DNA from: Candidatus Caldarchaeum subterraneum
Lineage (GTDB): Archaea; Thermoproteota; Nitrososphaeria_A; Caldarchaeales; Caldarchaeaceae
Assembly: GCA_937934305.1 (NCBI GenBank)
Contig: CALHAG010000002.1
Span: forward strand, 206,192 to 270,053
DNA: 63,862 nucleotides
Direction: 5' to 3'
The position numbers were made by a program, and so were the translations under genes. The notes beneath the pieces are model-generated. The model worked only from the letters and a program-made list of their open reading frames with translations. It ran no database searches and had not been told where the DNA came from. Positions 95-9,252 of the stretch are shown in pieces (the first letter of the stretch is position 1; each line of letters opens with the position of its first letter).

Positions 95-1895
95 ATGGTC
101 AGGGTAGTGGAGCTTCGGGAGGAGACTGAGCTTCTAGAAAAACTCAAGAATCGCTTTCCACACACTAGTCTACGTAGATATCAGGCCGACATCGCTAATA
201 GGGTCTACGAGAGCCTTTCCAACGGCTCTAGCATTCTTCTGGAGGGCCCTACGGGGCTGGGGAAGAGGCTATGAGGAGACTGTTTATGGGGGGTGGTTGG
301 CTGGCTGGCGTCTCCGAGCCTCCTATACAGCCCCTGTATGGGCCGCGGTGAGCGCCTACGCGGAGGAGAAAGGTCTGAGGGTTCTATGGCTCACCCGGAC
401 GGCGTCCCAAGTAGCTCACATCGCCAGCGAGATAGGATGCATGCCCATCTACGGCCGCCGGCTTCTCTGTATCCATGAGACGGTTAGCAAGGTTGAGCAG
501 AGACGGTTCAACGCGGCTTGTAGAGTTGTACGACTATCCGGACGTTGCTCATACTATCCCGGAAGGCCTAGCCAAATAAAGGCGAAGACTGTTGGAGAGA
601 TTAAAGATGCCGGTAGGAAGTCGGTCACATGTCCCTACGAGCTTCAGCTGACATCGATGCCATACTCGACGTCGCTGGTCGCCACCCATAAACAGTTGTC
701 TGTAGTTTCCTGGCTTTTGGCAAAATGGCGTTGGACCCGCGAGCGAACCATCTTGGTGCTCGACGAGTTCCAGAACATCTTGAAGACTGTTCTCGACCTC
801 TCAAAAGACGCCATAAGCCTGGCAACGCTCCGCAAGGCCGCCGCAGAGGCAGCAAGGTATGGCTTCAGGGATATTTCCAGCAGTCTTTCAGAAGCTTATC
901 AAAGATACAAGGCGGTTGACGTTGACGAGGCTGAGGTAGAAAACCTACTGCCCAGCTTCGAAGAGCTCTTCGAGGCGGGGCAGGAGATACAGGCTAGGAA
1001 ACTTGAGGAGAATGTTGTACCCGCCAGCTATGTGTTGAGCGTCGCAGACTTTAAGGCTGCTCTCGGCCAGCAGAAGCCCCTCCTAGTCAGGGAGGGTGAA
1101 CGGGTTTGGCTGGAGGCGCTAGCAGACCCACGCGAGGAGCTTGAAAAGATTCTCGAAGGCTGGAGAACGGTCATAGCTATGACGGCCACGATGGATGCGG
1201 AACTCGTTGAACGCATGGCTTCAACCCAAGTGACGCTGTTGCGAGCAGGGTGGCCCTTCGACGATAATCTGAAGGCATACATTGTCAGCGGCCTTACGAC
1301 GAGATACAGGGACAGGGATGTGGAGCTCTATGAAGATGTCCGATGGCTTATAGAACAATCTCATGGAATGAGGACTCTCGTCTTCCTACCCAGCTATGAA
1401 TTTGCTTCAATGATTCAGAAGAGGCTTAGCGACGCTATCGCCGAGCAACGGGGGATGACGCAGGAACAGGTGGAAGCCACGGCCGCTGAATTCGCGGAGG
1501 GTGGAAAAACGCTTTTAGCCGTCTTCGGTGGAAGGCTGGCAGAGGGCATCAACCTCCAAGCCGACTTGGTTATGCTGGTGGGCATACCATTCGCGAAACC
1601 ATCACCGCGAACAAAGAAGCTCGAGGACAAGCTTGAGAATGTCTTTGGGAGCAGTGACCTTTCCCGGCTACATGGACTAGTTTTACCGGCCCTCTTTGCC
1701 GCCGTGCAGGCCGCCGGTAGGGCTGTCAGAGGCCCCAATGATAGGGCTCTGGTCCTGCTCGTCGACGACAGATACCGCCGTTTGACAAAACACTTGCCCA
1801 GATGGTTCAGAGACTTGGTCTCAGATAAGCCGGTCAAGCTCACAGATGTTCCCATTCTATTGGATGAGTGGTTGTCATGGATGAAGAGCGTTTGA
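95..1895 (+). CDS. XPD/Rad3-family Fe-S DNA helicase, interrupted by a predicted BHB intron
   Basis: This is a superfamily 2, 5'-3' DNA helicase of the XPD/Rad3/DinG type. The ATG at 95 follows a good ribosome-binding site (GAGGTG); an upstream GTG at 86 is also possible. Read straight through, the frame ends at 272-274 just after GPTGLGK, and the rest continues in another frame. Removing bases 266-326 joins the frames and gives GPTGLGKTAPVW, a proper Walker A, with 20 residues to LTRT as in XPD. The spliced protein is about 579 aa. It has four cysteines at about 105, 122, 131 and 159 in the spacing of the XPD iron-sulfur domain, a DEFQ box (DEAH-like) at about 203, and C-terminal motifs V (EGINLQ) and VI (QAAGRAVRG). 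It overlaps the primase gene downstream. A genuine frameshifted pseudogene is the alternative, but the intron model fixes frame and motif together. Confidence 0.85.
266..326 (+). other. Predicted 61-nt BHB intron in the helicase mRNA
   Basis: The RNA folds into a bulge-helix-bulge. The outer helix pairs 253-259 with 328-334 (GGGGCTG/CAGCCCC, 7 bp). The central 4-bp helix pairs 260-263 with 321-324 (GGGA/TCCT, one G-U). The 5' bulge is AGA (264-266) and the 3' bulge is ATA (325-327). The inner intron helix pairs 267-270 with 317-320, and after a small internal loop 275-280 with 310-315 (GGAGAC/GTCTCC). The archaeal tRNA endonuclease rule (cut after the second bulge base) gives exon ends at 265 and 327. 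The product reads AAG|ACA, that is GK|T, in frame. Length 61 (1 mod 3) is exactly what the frame change requires. Confidence 0.8.
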
Positions 1896-3322
1896 GACAC
1901 GTTCTTGAACGCATCCGCAGACAGAACATCAACTACGTGAAGCTCAGAGGACTTGTCAGCCGATTCATGACTCTCAACCCCGAGGCAGACCCAGAAGCAA
2001 TAGATTGGACAGCCGTCTACGATGACTCCCTAAGCTACGACGAACTCGTCGAAGCATTTGAAAAAGAGTATCCCATGTACCGGTGGCGTGAGACAGCTCC
2101 CGCAGATGACAAACAAATCGAGGACATGCTGGTGAACCATATCCTCAACCAGGTCGAGGACCTTACAGAAGAGTCTCTCAAGTCGCTCGTCAATGCCTTG
2201 GAGGAGCGGCTGGAGGCTCTACGGCAGGCCGAAACCCCGGCATCTCCGACGGAGCAACAACCCGAACATACACAGATGCAACATCCTCAGCACCAACCGC
2301 CGACTATGACTGAAAACATACAACAGCCAGCGCCACAGCCGAAGGTAACCCTCAAGCTTCTCGCATCCTACCCCTTCCTAGCGGAGGCTAGGGAGGTGGT
2401 TAGGGGCGTGAGCTTCGAGGGTTTACCCAGGGCGGTATACAAAAGAGCCCGGGAGAGGCTAATGGAGGCTCTCGAACGGGGAGAGCTGGGGGTTGTTCCC
2501 CGGCTCGATGAACCGTTCGTGGAGCTTCTCTCCTTTCCCGTGGCGAAGGCCGTTGTCCACACAATCGACGACGACTGGCTGAAAAGGCGATGGGCCCTCG
2601 CAGAGTCAGCGAGGGTCGAGAGGCTTCTACTGAAGGAGAATGCGGATGTCTCAGAATGGCTCCTCTCCCGGCTACTTGAGGTCAGGCGAGAGGGGGAGGA
2701 GTATGCGCTGAGATTCACTGATTACCTAAAGCTTGTTGAAGGCCTTACCACCGATATTTCATGGAAGCTGGTGAATCAGAAGATGTCCAAAGGCTGGGTC
2801 TTTTTAACTAAGACCCGGCTCATACGGCTGATAAGACAAAGATTATACAGACTTCTCTACGACAGCTTCCCGGAGACGCCGAAGCTCAAGAAGATACCGG
2901 AGAAAATAGCCACGATAGTCGCCGACATAACCGAGGAGCTTCAGAAGATAAAATCAAAGCAGACGGGACGGTCCACCCCCATTAAGGGTGTCATGCCGCC
3001 CTGTATGAAGGCGATTAGCGATAGGCTGGCGGACGCCAGCCACACCGAGAACTTCGTCTACTGCGCATATCTGGTGAACGCGGGCTATACAGTTGAGGAA
3101 ATCGTCAACCTATTCAGAATACGCAGCGACTTCAGAGAAGACATAGCCAGATACCAAGTAGAGCATATAGCGGGGCTGAGGGGGAGCCGTGTGAAATACC
3201 GGCCCCCTTCATGCTCCCGCATGCGGGAACTCGGACTATGCATCGAGAACGGAAGACTATGCCCACCGAATATCCACAACCCACTACAATACCGACCTAG
3301 ACAACAGCGACAACCCACCTAA
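1877..3322 (+). CDS. priL: DNA primase large subunit PriL
   Basis: This is the large, regulatory iron-sulfur subunit of the archaeal/eukaryotic DNA primase, which with PriS starts replication primers. The C-terminal third is diagnostic: PPC at about 379 (counted from a GTG at 1868), YQVEHI, PPSC at 449, GLC at 458 and LCP at 465, the four cysteines that bind the 4Fe-4S cluster. The middle part (from about 165, SYPFLAEA, to 280) matches the helical N-terminal domain of PriL. Before it lies an unusual 150-residue extension with an acidic helical part and a Gln/Pro/His-rich linker (about 120-160). At about 480 aa it is longer than many archaeal PriL. It overlaps the end of the helicase gene, suggesting co-transcription. 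No priS is visible here, so it could be the chromosomal subunit or a copy on an integrated element. Confidence 0.88.
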   Translation: MDEERLRHVLERIRRQNINYVKLRGLVSRFMTLNPEADPEAIDWTAVYDDSLSYDELVEAFEKEYPMYRWRETAPADDKQIEDMLVNHILNQVEDLTEESLKSLVNALEERLEALRQAETPASPTEQQPEHTQMQHPQHQPPTMTENIQQPAPQPKVTLKLLASYPFLAEAREVVRGVSFEGLPRAVYKRARERLMEALERGELGVVPRLDEPFVELLSFPVAKAVVHTIDDDWLKRRWALAESARVERLLLKENADVSEWLLSRLLEVRREGEEYALRFTDYLKLVEGLTTDISWKLVNQKMSKGWVFLTKTRLIRLIRQRLYRLLYDSFPETPKLKKIPEKIATIVADITEELQKIKSKQTGRSTPIKGVMPPCMKAISDRLADASHTENFVYCAYLVNAGYTVEEIVNLFRIRSDFREDIARYQVEHIAGLRGSRVKYRPPSCSRMRELGLCIENGRLCPPNIHNPLQYRPRQQRQPT

Positions 3323-3342
3323 ACACCCCCTATTTTTTCTTT

Positions 3343-3569
3343 CCCCGATAGGAGGCCCTTTCCGCCGCTCTCCGGCGGGAGGGGTTCCTCCTGTCGGGGA
3401 GAGGTGGACTCAGGCCTCCCGGGAAAGCCATGACATTAAGTCATGGTACCGGACCCGGCCACCGGGGTAAAGGTGGCATGGACTCGTCTCCCGAGAGGCT
3501 GTTTGATGACTCGGGAGCGCCCGCGGTTCCAAGGCCCGCCGCGGGCGACAAGTGCCAGGGCCTGAGTTC
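3343..3569 (+). ncRNA. Candidate structured RNA: long hairpin plus multibranch domain
   Basis: A dense set of strong helices lies just after priL. A hairpin of about 25 bp pairs 3343-3367 with 3373-3399, interrupted only by a 2-nt bulge. An 11-bp long-range helix pairs 3406-3416 with 3559-3569 (GGACTCAGGCC with GGCCTGAGTTC). Inside it sit four hairpins: 3428-3434/3440-3446 (7 bp), 3458-3463/3472-3477 (6 bp), 3488-3495/3510-3517 (8 bp) and 3518-3526/3539-3547 (9 bp). All are perfect. I could not match it to RNase P RNA, SRP RNA, a tRNA or a known riboswitch. Part of it overlaps the possible 5' end of the next reading frame, so an mRNA leader structure is an alternative to an independent RNA. 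Confidence 0.5.
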
Positions 3570-3876
3570 GGGGGGTGGTTCGACTTATGAGCGTCTGCTG
3601 GAGCGCTACGGCGGCTTCTTCGAGGAGCTTGGCTATGGTTGTCTCGCCAGCTTTAAGCATCTGATTGAGCAAGTGGAGGTGACTATCGATACGGCGACAT
3701 CTAATGATGTCAACCTGTTTGCTAAGCTCCATGTGCTAAAGTCTGCGAGGGCCTCGGTAGAAGTATTTACGGAGTATTATAGTCGATTCCTGCCACCTAC
3801 TGTCGTCAATAACCTGCGAGCTGACCTGACATTTCTGCTTGAGCGTGCTGAGGAGGTGGTGTTGACTTTTGGCTGA
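3478..3876 (+). CDS. Small helical protein upstream of the DNA methyltransferase
   Basis: I do not recognise this protein. The conserved-looking part starts at about base 3583 (TYERLLERYGGFFEEL) and is a compact, mostly helical, acidic domain of about 95 residues. The N-terminal 35 residues are Gly/Pro/Ser-rich and overlap strong RNA hairpins. The start is therefore doubtful: ATG at 3430 and 3478 are both in frame, and neither has a well-placed ribosome-binding site. The last bases overlap the TTG start of the methyltransferase (3869), a coupling typical of genes acting together. A partner or accessory role to the methyltransferase is a guess from position only. Confidence 0.55.
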   Translation: MDSSPERLFDDSGAPAVPRPAAGDKCQGLSSGGGSTYERLLERYGGFFEELGYGCLASFKHLIEQVEVTIDTATSNDVNLFAKLHVLKSARASVEVFTEYYSRFLPPTVVNNLRADLTFLLERAEEVVLTFG

Positions 3877-4780
3877 ATTCATAGACCCCACCATTCTGAA
3901 AGGGTGGTGGGGTTCCGAGGAATACCAGAGGCTGTTATCCTTCGAGCCGGAAAATGCAGGTGACTACTATCGGTTACCATTCGCCAAATACAACGAGCTC
4001 TTTCCGTTCATCAAAGTCAAGATTGAGCACCCTGCAGTGATGAACCCATACTTGGCGATTTTCCTTTGGCGGCGTTACGTAAAACCAAATGATGTAATAA
4101 TCGACCCTATGGCTGGGATAGGGGGTACACCCGATATGTAGGGGCCCAGCTTTATCCCAGCCATAGCCTGCAGATTGACCAATGATAACCACTTAATCCT
4201 CAACGATATTGAGTCGACTTACGCCAGACTCTCTGAGGAGCTTCTTTCGGAGATGCTGGTCGTTACTAATCACAGCACCCTGCTGGACGTCTACAACGTA
4301 AACGCTGCCTCTCTTTATGAACTTCTTAGACCAAGAGGACTTGCTGGAGGCGTACGGAGGAGGGTTATTATTACCTCTCCTCCGTATGGCCTCCTCAGGC
4401 CCTGTGATAGCTTCAGCCCGAGGTTTGGCAGACTGACGGTAACTTCCGCCGGTAACCTTAGCGTGATAACCGGTAAACACTTTAGGGCGGCTTGGCTGGG
4501 CGTGCTGACTTCGATGTATCTCTGTCTCAACCAGTTCCATAGAAACCGTGACTTGGCTGTGATTGTCCTCAAAAACTTCAAGAATAACAATGTGGAAAAG
4601 GCTGTTGGAAAAAACCTCGTCAATTTAACGGTTGAACTCGCGGAGTTCGTTGGATTCAAACATCTCGAGACGCTGAAGTTCAAGATTTCAGGCAGCCACT
4701 TCGCCAGATACCACGACATCAAGCAACATGTCCATGACCTCTGGCACGAATATGCGCTGGTCTTCCGCAAGGTGGTGTAG
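3869..4780 (+). CDS. DNA methyltransferase (TSPPY type), interrupted by a predicted 21-nt BHB intron
   Basis: This is a SAM-dependent amino-methyltransferase, probably DNA N4-cytosine or N6-adenine, from motif I (DPMAGIGGT, residues 79-87) followed by catalytic motif IV (TSPPY, about 162-166). The unspliced frame has an in-frame TAG at 4139-4141. Removing 4129-4149 deletes the stop, keeps the frame and gives DPMAGIGGTFIPAIAC, with the spacing from motif I to the acidic NDIE normal for the family. The spliced protein is 296 aa. The TTG start overlaps the preceding gene, and the stop abuts the next ATG. No restriction endonuclease is recognisable nearby, so it could be an orphan methylase. Without splicing only a 90-residue fragment would be made. 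Confidence 0.85.
4129..4149 (+). other. Predicted 21-nt BHB intron carrying the in-frame stop
   Basis: This is a near-ideal BHB. The outer exon-exon helix has 16 bp (4107-4122 with 4151-4166, 14 Watson-Crick plus two G-U). The 3' bulge is AGC (4148-4150). The central 4-bp helix pairs 4123-4126 with 4144-4147 (GGGT/GCCC). The 5' bulge is ACA (4127-4129). The inner helix pairs CCC 4130-4132 with GGG 4141-4143 and closes an 8-nt loop. Cutting after the second base of each bulge leaves AC|C, a Thr codon, in frame. The intron length is a multiple of three and the intron contains the TAG. Confidence 0.82.
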
Positions 4781-5629
4781 ATGAGGATTTTCGCTGATGT
4801 TCATAGGAAAAAGGATGACAGCGGCTACCGCATCACATATACAACTGACGGCGAAGTCTTTAAACACGTTGATTCTCCGATGGACATCCCCGCGCAGGCA
4901 GGAGACGAGGTATTCGTTGACACTATACCGATAATCCACACCGACGCATTCATAGAGCTACTGAGGAGAGGTGTAGAGGTCTATTATCTACGAAGACTCT
5001 CACTTATTGAAAAGACAAGACAGAGACTGGGGATACCGAAGTCAGCCAAAAATGACGTAAAAATTCTGATGAACATTGAGAAGAAATGGTTCAAGAGAGT
5101 TGACGAGGACTTCTTGAGCATGCGTCAGATTATTTCGGCGTTTAGGAGATTGGATAGAGACAAACAGAGGTTGGAGAACCAGTCTAAGGACGTGCCGGAG
5201 ATTACAAAGGAAAGCTTCAGGAGGCTCATAGACCATACAGAGGAGGAGAAGTTGGTAATAGCCAAACCAATAGTAGAAGAAGCAGAGAAGAGGCTTTCGT
5301 TATTTAGAGTAGTAGCGCAGGAGCTGGGTGTTGCAGACGATAATCATTCGATGGGAAGAGAGGCACTGGCCGAACTACTGACATACGTAGACTTCAGCAA
5401 ATCCTTCAGAAAAGTCAGAGAGTATCTCGGACTCTTCAGAAACCCGAAGACCAAAAACATGAGATACAGCCACAGTTCTAGGAAGGCGTTGAACCGTCTA
5501 ACAATGTCGCTGACGGGCAGAGAGCCAAAAGCAGAAGACGAGGAAACAATAGCTTTCAAGATATGGCTGACGTTCCGACGGGAAAACCAAAAGAGGCTGG
5601 CGGGCATACCGGCCCAACAACAGGGATAA
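4781..5629 (+). CDS. Uncharacterised protein, possibly a diverged IS110-like transposase/recombinase
   Basis: The ATG directly follows the methyltransferase stop. The 282-aa product has an N-terminal part of about 100 residues (ADVHRKK, DEVFVDT, GVEVYYLRRL, then AKNDVKILMN) that resembles the order of elements in the DEDD/RuvC-like domain of IS110 transposases, where KTD-DA follows a conserved Gly-Val segment. A charged helical middle follows. A C-terminal stretch (FRKVREYLGLFRNP then SHSSRKALNRL) resembles the IS116/IS110/IS902 C-terminal domain. The similarity is by eye and weak, and catalytic acidic residues are not secure. A strongly folded non-coding stretch follows immediately, as in elements with guide RNAs, but no element ends were found. 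Treat the function as unknown. Confidence 0.5.
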   Translation: MRIFADVHRKKDDSGYRITYTTDGEVFKHVDSPMDIPAQAGDEVFVDTIPIIHTDAFIELLRRGVEVYYLRRLSLIEKTRQRLGIPKSAKNDVKILMNIEKKWFKRVDEDFLSMRQIISAFRRLDRDKQRLENQSKDVPEITKESFRRLIDHTEEEKLVIAKPIVEEAEKRLSLFRVVAQELGVADDNHSMGREALAELLTYVDFSKSFRKVREYLGLFRNPKTKNMRYSHSSRKALNRLTMSLTGREPKAEDEETIAFKIWLTFRRENQKRLAGIPAQQQG

Positions 5630-5720
5630 AACCCATAGGCCGGTATGTCATGTTATAAAACGAACTGGCTCTCTTGCCAGTTATGTCCCAACCTTTAACG
5701 ACCGGCCTCTTTTTGGGTTT
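5629..5720 (+). other. Folded intergenic element (nested stems)
   Basis: Three nested perfect stems: 5629-5635 with 5714-5720 (AAACCCA/TGGGTTT), 5637-5644 with 5701-5708 (AGGCCGGT/ACCGGCCT) and a hairpin 5663-5669/5676-5682 (AACTGGC/GCCAGTT, 6-nt loop). Two 18-nt single-stranded segments flank the central hairpin. A T-run lies within the 3' strand. It may be a terminator for the upstream operon or a small structured RNA. No ACA box or C/D boxes fit. Confidence 0.45.
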
Positions 5721-5827
5721 CCTAGGTGTTGTTTGGTGGTTGCCTGCCAGCCAACCATCCCCCTATTTTTCCCTTCTTTTTGTGATGTTTTTTGTTTATA
5801 TCATGGGTGTGGGGTGTTTTCGGGGGT

Positions 5828-6289
5828 ATGGTCTCTGAGCTTGGTTATGGTGGGTTTGTTGCGGAGGTGTTGAGTGGGCTTGGTGTGGGGTTGGGTGATG
5901 AGGTTGAGGTTGTGAGAAATGGGCTGCGGCTCCGCGGGTTTGTGATGGCGCGTTACGAGTATGGGGCGCCTGATGTTCTGGTTTTGAAGCTTTCGAACGG
6001 CTACAACATAGGTGTGCGCATCGATGCCTCTACACAGATACGTAAGCTCTCCTCAGCCGTCGCGCCATCTTTCAACCCACCTCCACCCGCCCAGCCTCGG
6101 GAAAACCTGCCCCGCGTCATGATTGCCAACACAGGCGGCACCATAGCCAGCAGAATAGACTACAGGACAGGAGGAGTTAAACCCGCTCTCACTGCATCGG
6201 ACCTCGTCAGCATAGTTCCCGAAATCGCGGAGAAAGCAAACGTCTCAACCGAGATTCTGATGCAGGTTGTGAGTATGTTTATAACATAA
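5828..6289 (+). pseudogene. gatD: Truncated gatD (Glu-tRNA(Gln) amidotransferase subunit D), N-terminal third only
   Basis: GatD is the asparaginase-like subunit that releases ammonia for the archaeal GatDE amidotransferase. This frame has the GatD beta-barrel N-terminal domain (GDEVEVVRNG, MARYEYG, LVLKLSNGYNIG) and the first catalytic threonine loop NTGGTIASR, then the ALTASDLVSIVPE segment. It stops after about 153 residues, whereas GatD is normally around 420-450. The rest is not found downstream; the next gene and its promoter begin at the breakpoint. The fragment lacks most of the active site and is almost surely inactive. A functional copy should exist elsewhere if the organism uses GatDE. 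Confidence 0.85.
6278..6285 (+). promoter_or_regulatory. TATA box of the LLM oxidoreductase gene
   Basis: TTTATAAC is centred about 26 nt before the ATG at 6307, the spacing of a leaderless archaeal transcript. It sits inside the last codons of the truncated gatD, so the promoter seems to have arrived with the downstream gene. Confidence 0.5.
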
Positions 6290-9147: not shown

Positions 9148-9252
9148 GGGCCCGTAGCTTAGAATGGATAGAGCGCTGGCCTCCGGAGCCAGAGGTCGTG
9201 AGCAGAGGCACGGAAGTGCTTCGCCGACAGGGTTCAAGTCCCACCGGGCCCG
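9148..9252 (+). tRNA. tRNA-Arg (anticodon CCG) with an intron in the T stem
   Basis: Acceptor GGGCCCG (9148-9154) pairs with CGGGCCC (9245-9251), discriminator G, CCA not encoded. D arm 9157-9174; anticodon stem CTGGC/GCCAG (9176-9180, 9188-9192) with loop CTCCGGA, anticodon CCG. The T stem is broken in the gene: only removal of 9201-9230 gives GTGGG/CCCAC around the loop TTCAAGT. A promoter lies at 9117-9125. Confidence 0.92.
9201..9230 (+). other. 30-nt noncanonical tRNA intron (T stem, after position 51)
   Basis: BHB: exon GTCG (9194-9197) pairs with intron CGAC, bulges TGA and AGG, inner intron hairpin GAGGCAC/GTGCTTC with GGAA loop. Cutting after the second base of each bulge removes exactly these 30 nt and restores a five-pair T stem. 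Confidence 0.88.

Follow-up and report, generated by a model that had tools for sequence, protein, structure and literature searches.

The window analysed here (G000:C2:206192-270053, 63,862 nucleotides) comes from the ~1.56-Mb genome of a hot-spring archaeon (1.564 Mb; G000, the source genome), among whose nearest relatives are a congener (G002), Archaeon HR01 (G005) and Archaeon HR02 (G018). Its left end carries a mobile-element-like cluster made up of genes for an XPD-like helicase (86-1895, + strand), a PriL-like primase (1868-3322), a 148-aa ORF (3430-3876), a DNA methyltransferase (3869-4780, + strand) and a 282-aa ORF (4781-5629). Searches of IMG/VR, PLSDB and INPHARED returned no virus or plasmid match for the spliced form of the methyltransferase described below, and searches of IMG/VR and INPHARED no virus match for the helicase, for which reason we assign the cluster to neither viruses nor plasmids. 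A GC-rich stretch (3335-3600) upstream of the 148-aa ORF displays a very strong predicted structure (z = -7.5); it recurs with ~75% identity at two places in HR01 and in part in two other genomes, G024 and G037, adjoining in the latter a homologue of the 282-aa ORF. The stretch had no match in Rfam and is a candidate noncoding RNA. Downstream of the cluster lie a GatD gene (asparaginase-like subunit; 5792-6289) cut off past its N-terminal part (~165 aa), and a 105-nt tRNA gene (9148-9252, + strand) that, being of this length and detected by Rfam while missed by ARAGORN, probably carries an intron.

An earlier note on this DNA had described the methyltransferase gene as open save for a TAG at 4139-4141. 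Coordinates and frame bear this out, the frame being otherwise open over 304 codons. The region 4107-4166 around the stop folds into a textbook bulge-helix-bulge (BHB), of which we found every element that the note had listed (16-bp outer helix, 4-bp central helix, bulges AGC and ACA, 3-bp inner helix and 8-nt loop), all on the + strand. Exon 1 (3869-4128; 86 codons and 2 further bases, counted from a putative TTG start) is open up to the TAG and homologous to residues 1-88 of the HR01 protein. Its end provides the exonic 5' arm of the outer helix (4107-4122, 16 bp), the exonic strand of the central helix (4123-4126, GGGU, 4 bp) and, directly 3' of that strand, the 5' bulge (4127-4129, AC^A, where the caret marks the point of cutting or joining). 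The 21-nt intron (4129-4149, ACCCGATATGTAGGGGCCCAG) contributes the inner helix (4130-4132/4141-4143, CCC/GGG, 3 bp), its 8-nt loop (4133-4140) and the intronic strand of the central helix (4144-4147, GCCC), and is followed by the 3' bulge (4148-4150, AG^C) and the exonic 3' arm of the outer helix (4151-4166). Exon 2 (4150-4780) is an open frame and carries the acidic motif NDIE and motif IV SPPY. The outer arms and the exonic central strand were assigned from the RNA fold and a table of pairs across homologues, and the intron from the BHB rule, the motif restored and the same-site introns of HR01 and HR02. Fourteen consecutive pairs of the outer helix are Watson-Crick and the two beside the central helix are G-U. 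The 80-nt RNA around the intron folds at -37.3 kcal/mol (z = -4.0), a value equalled by none of 200 shuffled sequences.

Cutting at AC^A and AG^C removes 4129-4149 and leaves one continuous 296-codon frame containing DPMAGIGGTFIPAIAC, in agreement with the earlier expectation that excision would keep the frame and eliminate the stop. With the in-frame TAG gone, the methyltransferase motif DPMAGIGGT^FIPAIAC is rebuilt. The predicted junction of the ligated mRNA reads GGGATAGGGGGTAC^CTTTATCCCAGCC (4128^4150), encoding the junction peptide GIGGTFIPAIACR, and the spliced protein harbors motif I (DPMAGIGG), the acidic motif NDIE and motif IV (SPPY). A weak match to the Pfam model N6_N4_Mtase, confined to residues 52-87 of the unspliced product, extends over residues 52-116 of the spliced one and thus across the junction.

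Upon searching 101 related genomes with the spliced methyltransferase, close homologues were found in HR02 (64% identity over the spliced protein) and HR01 (37%) only, and the alignments covering the site break in both at residues 85-88, which is the splice point. The two halves of the HR01 gene lie in different frames, separated by a 20-nt intron set in a strict BHB with a 16-bp outer helix, and removal of these 20 nt gives VVEPMVGVGG^SLIPAIALGM in a single frame. Five HR02 copies present a BHB with an intron of 22 or 25 nt and, when spliced, read GVGGTFIPAIACRL (SCRL in one copy), except for a copy with an extra G that stays out of frame even after intron removal. The interruption falls at an identical codon and phase in G000, HR01 and HR02, with intron sequences that vary from genus to genus. 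No close intron-free methyltransferase was found, only distant ones, and these run through the site (DPFCGVGGILLEAG, DPFAGSGTTCVAAV) with normal spacing and no extra residues. Whether homologues carry the seven additional residues as ordinary sequence, the outcome that the earlier note had held against its own reading, was thus answered in the negative, close relatives having different, frame-shifting introns and distant ones none. The comparison makes the reading of the methyltransferase insert as an intron nearly certain as far as sequences go, splicing itself being predicted. An artifact of assembly was rejected, the site being common to independent assemblies of three genera.

These same homologues bear on the idea that the ribosome deals with the stop, either by reading TAG as an amino acid or by a stem-loop-driven hop as in T4 gene 60. 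The G000 insert would suit it, being 21 nt long with a single in-frame TAG, which keeps the frame, and having a strong stem around that codon. Inserts of 20, 22 and 25 nt, however, shift the frame in HR01 and HR02, where read-through would be unworkable, and bypassing has no need of two 3-nt bulges around a 4-bp helix, yet these are kept in all copies. We regard translational recoding as highly improbable and an intron as the better reading.

The earlier note further considered the inverted repeat improbable by chance, a claim that stood in part. A strict scan for BHBs (outer helix of at least 5 pairs, inner helix of at least 3, intron of 14-110 nt) covered 1.447 Mb of the 1.564-Mb genome and returned ~3,000 BHB-like sites, among which the methyltransferase site has the longest outer helix (16 pairs; next longest, 14); in three random 1.45-Mb sequences scanned likewise, outer helices reached at most 13 pairs. 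The long stem is nonetheless partly prescribed by the protein, because the exon arms encode PMAGxGG and IPAIA. When synonymous codons of the arms were resampled with local usage and outer pairs counted, these motif peptides proved intrinsically complementary, with a mean of 12.6 of 16 pairs under recoding. Against this expectation, the 16 of 16 pairs observed in G000 still give P = 0.0017 (total pairs), the corresponding values being P = 0.007 in HR01, P = 0.037 (total pairs) or 0.07 (consecutive pairs) in HR02, and P = 0.005 and 0.019 (consecutive pairs) for exon arms of the helicase. Codon choice in the exon arms is tuned to pairing beyond what the protein sequence dictates, and the methyltransferase stem by itself is weaker evidence than it appears.

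A second BHB intron, absent from the earlier note, was found 3.8 kb upstream of the first, in the XPD-like helicase (266-326, 61 nt, + strand). An ORF at 86-274 ends just past EGPTGLGK, the first half of a Walker A motif, and coding continues with TAPVWAAVSAYAEE in the following ORF, which is in a different frame. Exon 1 (86-265), delineated with homologues in five genomes, ends with EGPTGLGK, and exon 2 (327-1895) matches the Pfam models DEAD_2 and Helicase_C_2. The strict BHB comprises a 7-bp outer helix (253-259/328-334), a central helix (260-263/321-324, GGGA/UCCU), a 4-bp inner helix (267-270/317-320) and bulges at 264-266 (AG^A) and 325-327 (AU^A). Ligation at the predicted junction, GGGGCTGGGGAAG^ACAGCCCCTG (265^327), would yield a protein of 582 residues reading EGPTGLGK^TAPVWAAVSAYAEE, with a complete Walker A motif (GLGK^T). 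The spliced protein matches DEAD, DEAD_2 and Helicase_C_2, the DEAD match (PF00270, 29.5 bits) being seen only after splicing. Because the free-energy minimum at this intron favours another internal pairing, the helicase BHB is supported by the scan, by covariation and by the product, and not by the fold.

Introns occupy the same helicase site in genomes of two other genera (G011, 84 nt; G023, 98 nt), and all three genes give GLGK^T; the G023 intron allows two cutting registers owing to a repeated AG, with the same product. Outer helices are short in all three genera (5-7 bp). In contrast, the helicases of G014 and of the congener G002 have no intron and read GLGKT/GAGKT directly; since the congener lacks it, presence of the intron does not follow host relationship. 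The G002 gene also has a frameshift near codon 375, for which an intron is not an obvious explanation; a plain frameshift mutation or an error in sequencing may account for it. In the helicase tree, G000 and G011 group together (87/98) and the other branches lack resolution, so that either gain or loss may account for the distribution. The G000-G011 comparison indicates purifying selection (dN/dS ~0.11, with dS near saturation). The strict scan is passed by both genes of G000, by the methyltransferase of HR01 and by the helicases of G011 and G023; the HR02 BHBs qualify if two G-U pairs are allowed in the central helix. Combining strict BHBs with broken frames across the genome gave 12 candidate mRNA introns, the methyltransferase among them; the others have shorter, mostly G-U-rich outer helices, those inspected resemble ordinary gene boundaries, and we put none of these others forward as introns. 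This filter missed the helicase intron and so may miss others.

Structural comparison between genera supports both introns. In structure-based alignments of the methyltransferase, both sides have changed at outer pairs 3, 6 and 9 and at central pair 4. The helicase central helix has a different sequence in each genus (GGGA/UCCU, GGCA/UGCC, UCGG/CCGA) and preserves every pair. Covariation in the central helix goes beyond a protein-coding explanation because one strand is intron. This counts against the reading of both genes as pseudogenes, with the TAG and the helicase frame break as ordinary inactivating mutations and the inverted repeats as incidental or codon-driven, the covarying positions taking in intron bases. 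Moreover, the same codon is broken in three genera per gene, by inserts of varied lengths, with an exact BHB every time and the rest of the frame open. In favour of inactivation are the share of the stem that the encoded motif already prescribes and the many truncated methyltransferase copies of HR02. The HR02 copies are 5'-truncated, one has the extra G, and they may be decaying; their dN/dS of ~0.2 indicates purifying selection. On balance, inactivated genes are a very improbable explanation, if slightly less so than recoding, and we retain the intron reading for both.

Numerous partial copies of the methyltransferase and 282-aa ORF were observed in HR02 (L021-L030, L061) and HR01 (L032, L033, L078), often at contig ends and some with internal methyltransferase deletions. 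On contig C16 of HR01, a C-terminal methyltransferase remnant is followed by an ORF resembling a LAGLIDADG-type endonuclease.

Both interruptions have the features of BHB introns, namely a 4-bp central helix, two 3-nt bulges on opposite strands and an exonic as well as an intronic helix. A cut after the second base of each bulge restores Walker A or SAM motif I in all intact copies. The position is shared by homologues and the intron absent from some relatives (for the methyltransferase, distant ones only), the structure changes in a compensatory manner, and the host has genes for the splicing endonuclease and an RNA ligase. Group I and group II introns and inteins were rejected, the introns being 21 and 61 nt long and the frames shifted in homologues; an Rfam search of the window gave no match besides tRNA. 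As to the enzymes, G000 encodes two proteins of EndA fold (PF01974), one with the catalytic Tyr/His/Lys and the other missing them as judged by eye, which from sequence classifies its EndA as the alpha-beta type, a type that accepts broad BHB substrates (PMC6379350). It also encodes RtcB (PF01139). The rtcB gene (G000:C5:446-3184; L064, L065) contains, within a 964-aa open frame, an in-frame insertion of ~460 aa that looks like an intein.

We conclude that the interruptions of the methyltransferase and helicase genes, each inside the best-conserved catalytic motif of its gene, are very probably archaeal tRNA-type (BHB) introns in mRNAs. The exon-intron junctions of the transcript would fold locally into a BHB, the host (alpha beta)2 splicing endonuclease would cut each 3-nt bulge past its second base, and RtcB would join the exons; the resulting message would code for a methyltransferase with its SAM-binding loop intact or for a helicase with its Walker A loop intact, while the introns would leave as small RNAs, linear or circular. 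The scheme builds on what can be read in the genomes (BHBs at the exact junctions, interruption at an identical codon and phase across three genera per gene, compensatory changes, restored frames, empty helicase sites and the enzyme genes), from which we infer cleavage, ligation, translation and any regulatory role of both introns. Alternatively, EndA might cut the BHB without ligation, a regulatory cleavage switching the mRNA off, for which there is precedent in EndA-cleaved BHB sites of an mRNA 5' UTR (HVO_1309; PMC7714728); but ligation exactly restores the catalytic motifs in every case and intron-free helicase relatives have the joined sequence, making cleavage alone about as improbable as recoding when set against splicing.

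The last gene of the cluster, the 282-aa ORF, gave an AlphaFold2 model (pLDDT 89) that, among PDB structures, comes closest to IS621 and ISCro4, bridge-RNA recombinases of the IS110 family, and to the TIGR-TasR protein (E ~1e-6, TM ~0.6, 13% identity); it has no Pfam or NCBIfam match, and it models as an IS110-like recombinase. The family is multi-copy in Caldarchaeales, occurring in 16 of 44 genomes with 22 matches in HR02. A conserved RNA of ~170 nt (5605-5784) begins in the last codons of the ORF and forms a hairpin with compensatory changes, adjoined by two copy-specific 7-mers. These match the boundary flanks of their own copy in 6 of 14 copies, versus 6 of 182 foreign guides, the pattern and windows having been picked after some copies were seen. 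Target guides of a bridge RNA would be expected to match in this way, and an RNA located 3' of the recombinase is known from the IS1111 group (PMC11208160). ORF and RNA are candidates for a divergent archaeal bridge-RNA family, multi-copy in Caldarchaeales. The G002 copies (L192-L197) share a 5' module of ~600 nt and probably correspond to 'region a', a repeat, and 'region b', which is recombinase-like, both reported by Sugahara et al. (2012; PMC3293823) where a tRNA-Thr gene is disrupted.

As of 2020, cbf5 was the only additional gene with a BHB intron reported in archaeal mRNA (PMC7714728), and the open-access literature, to which our search was directed, yielded no other in a coding sequence. 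Like the introns described here, that of the crenarchaeal cbf5 pre-mRNA (Watanabe 2002; Yokobori 2009, PMC2738675) interrupts a coding sequence in the codon of a catalytic residue (Asp), has been lost in some lineages and occurs where EndA is hetero-oligomeric. Unlike it, the present introns lie in a DNA methyltransferase and an XPD-like helicase of a mobile-element-like cluster in another order, have no sequence homology to the cbf5 introns, and are predicted from sequence, whereas cbf5 splicing was demonstrated experimentally. Crenarchaeal cbf5 introns measure 16-44 nt, the shortest 16 nt (PMC2738675 Table 1; Yokobori 2009), so that the methyltransferase intron, which the earlier note ranked among the shortest of its kind in mRNA, is short but no record, the HR01 homologue itself having 20 nt. 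With archaeal tRNA and rRNA introns the two share the hBHBh' motif, the 4-bp central helix, the two 3-nt bulges and, presumably, EndA and RtcB chemistry; here, however, the exons are coding and pair only locally (outer helix of 16 bp or 5-7 bp), with no tRNA body for recognition. The HVO_1309 site resembles them as an EndA substrate in mRNA, predicted in our case, but lies in an untranslated region where no coding exons are joined. The present introns belong to a known class; their host genes, order and genetic setting are new.

All three known archaeal coding BHB positions, the catalytic Asp codon of Cbf5 (PMC2738675), SAM motif I and Walker A, are in catalytic loops. This placement would be expected under either of two scenarios, one in which imprecise loss destroys the gene and one in which introns propagate via conserved sequence. 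More tentatively, BHB introns may be a recurring component, perhaps selfish or host-restricting, of an archaeal mobile gene cluster. Placed in the most conserved catalytic codons, they would confine expression of helicase and methyltransferase to hosts whose alpha-beta EndA has broad specificity, and their imprecise loss would destroy the gene; we consider this possible but rather unlikely. The addition of two host genes, from a different order and within a mobile-element-like cluster, suggests that mRNA splicing of the tRNA type is no isolated case and that the tRNA-splicing enzymes are seemingly used more widely than thought. Gene callers will split genes of this kind, and an intron as short as 20-25 nt can be taken for one in-frame stop or a minor frameshift. 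With codons of catalytic loops hit repeatedly, the persistence of these introns becomes a testable question.
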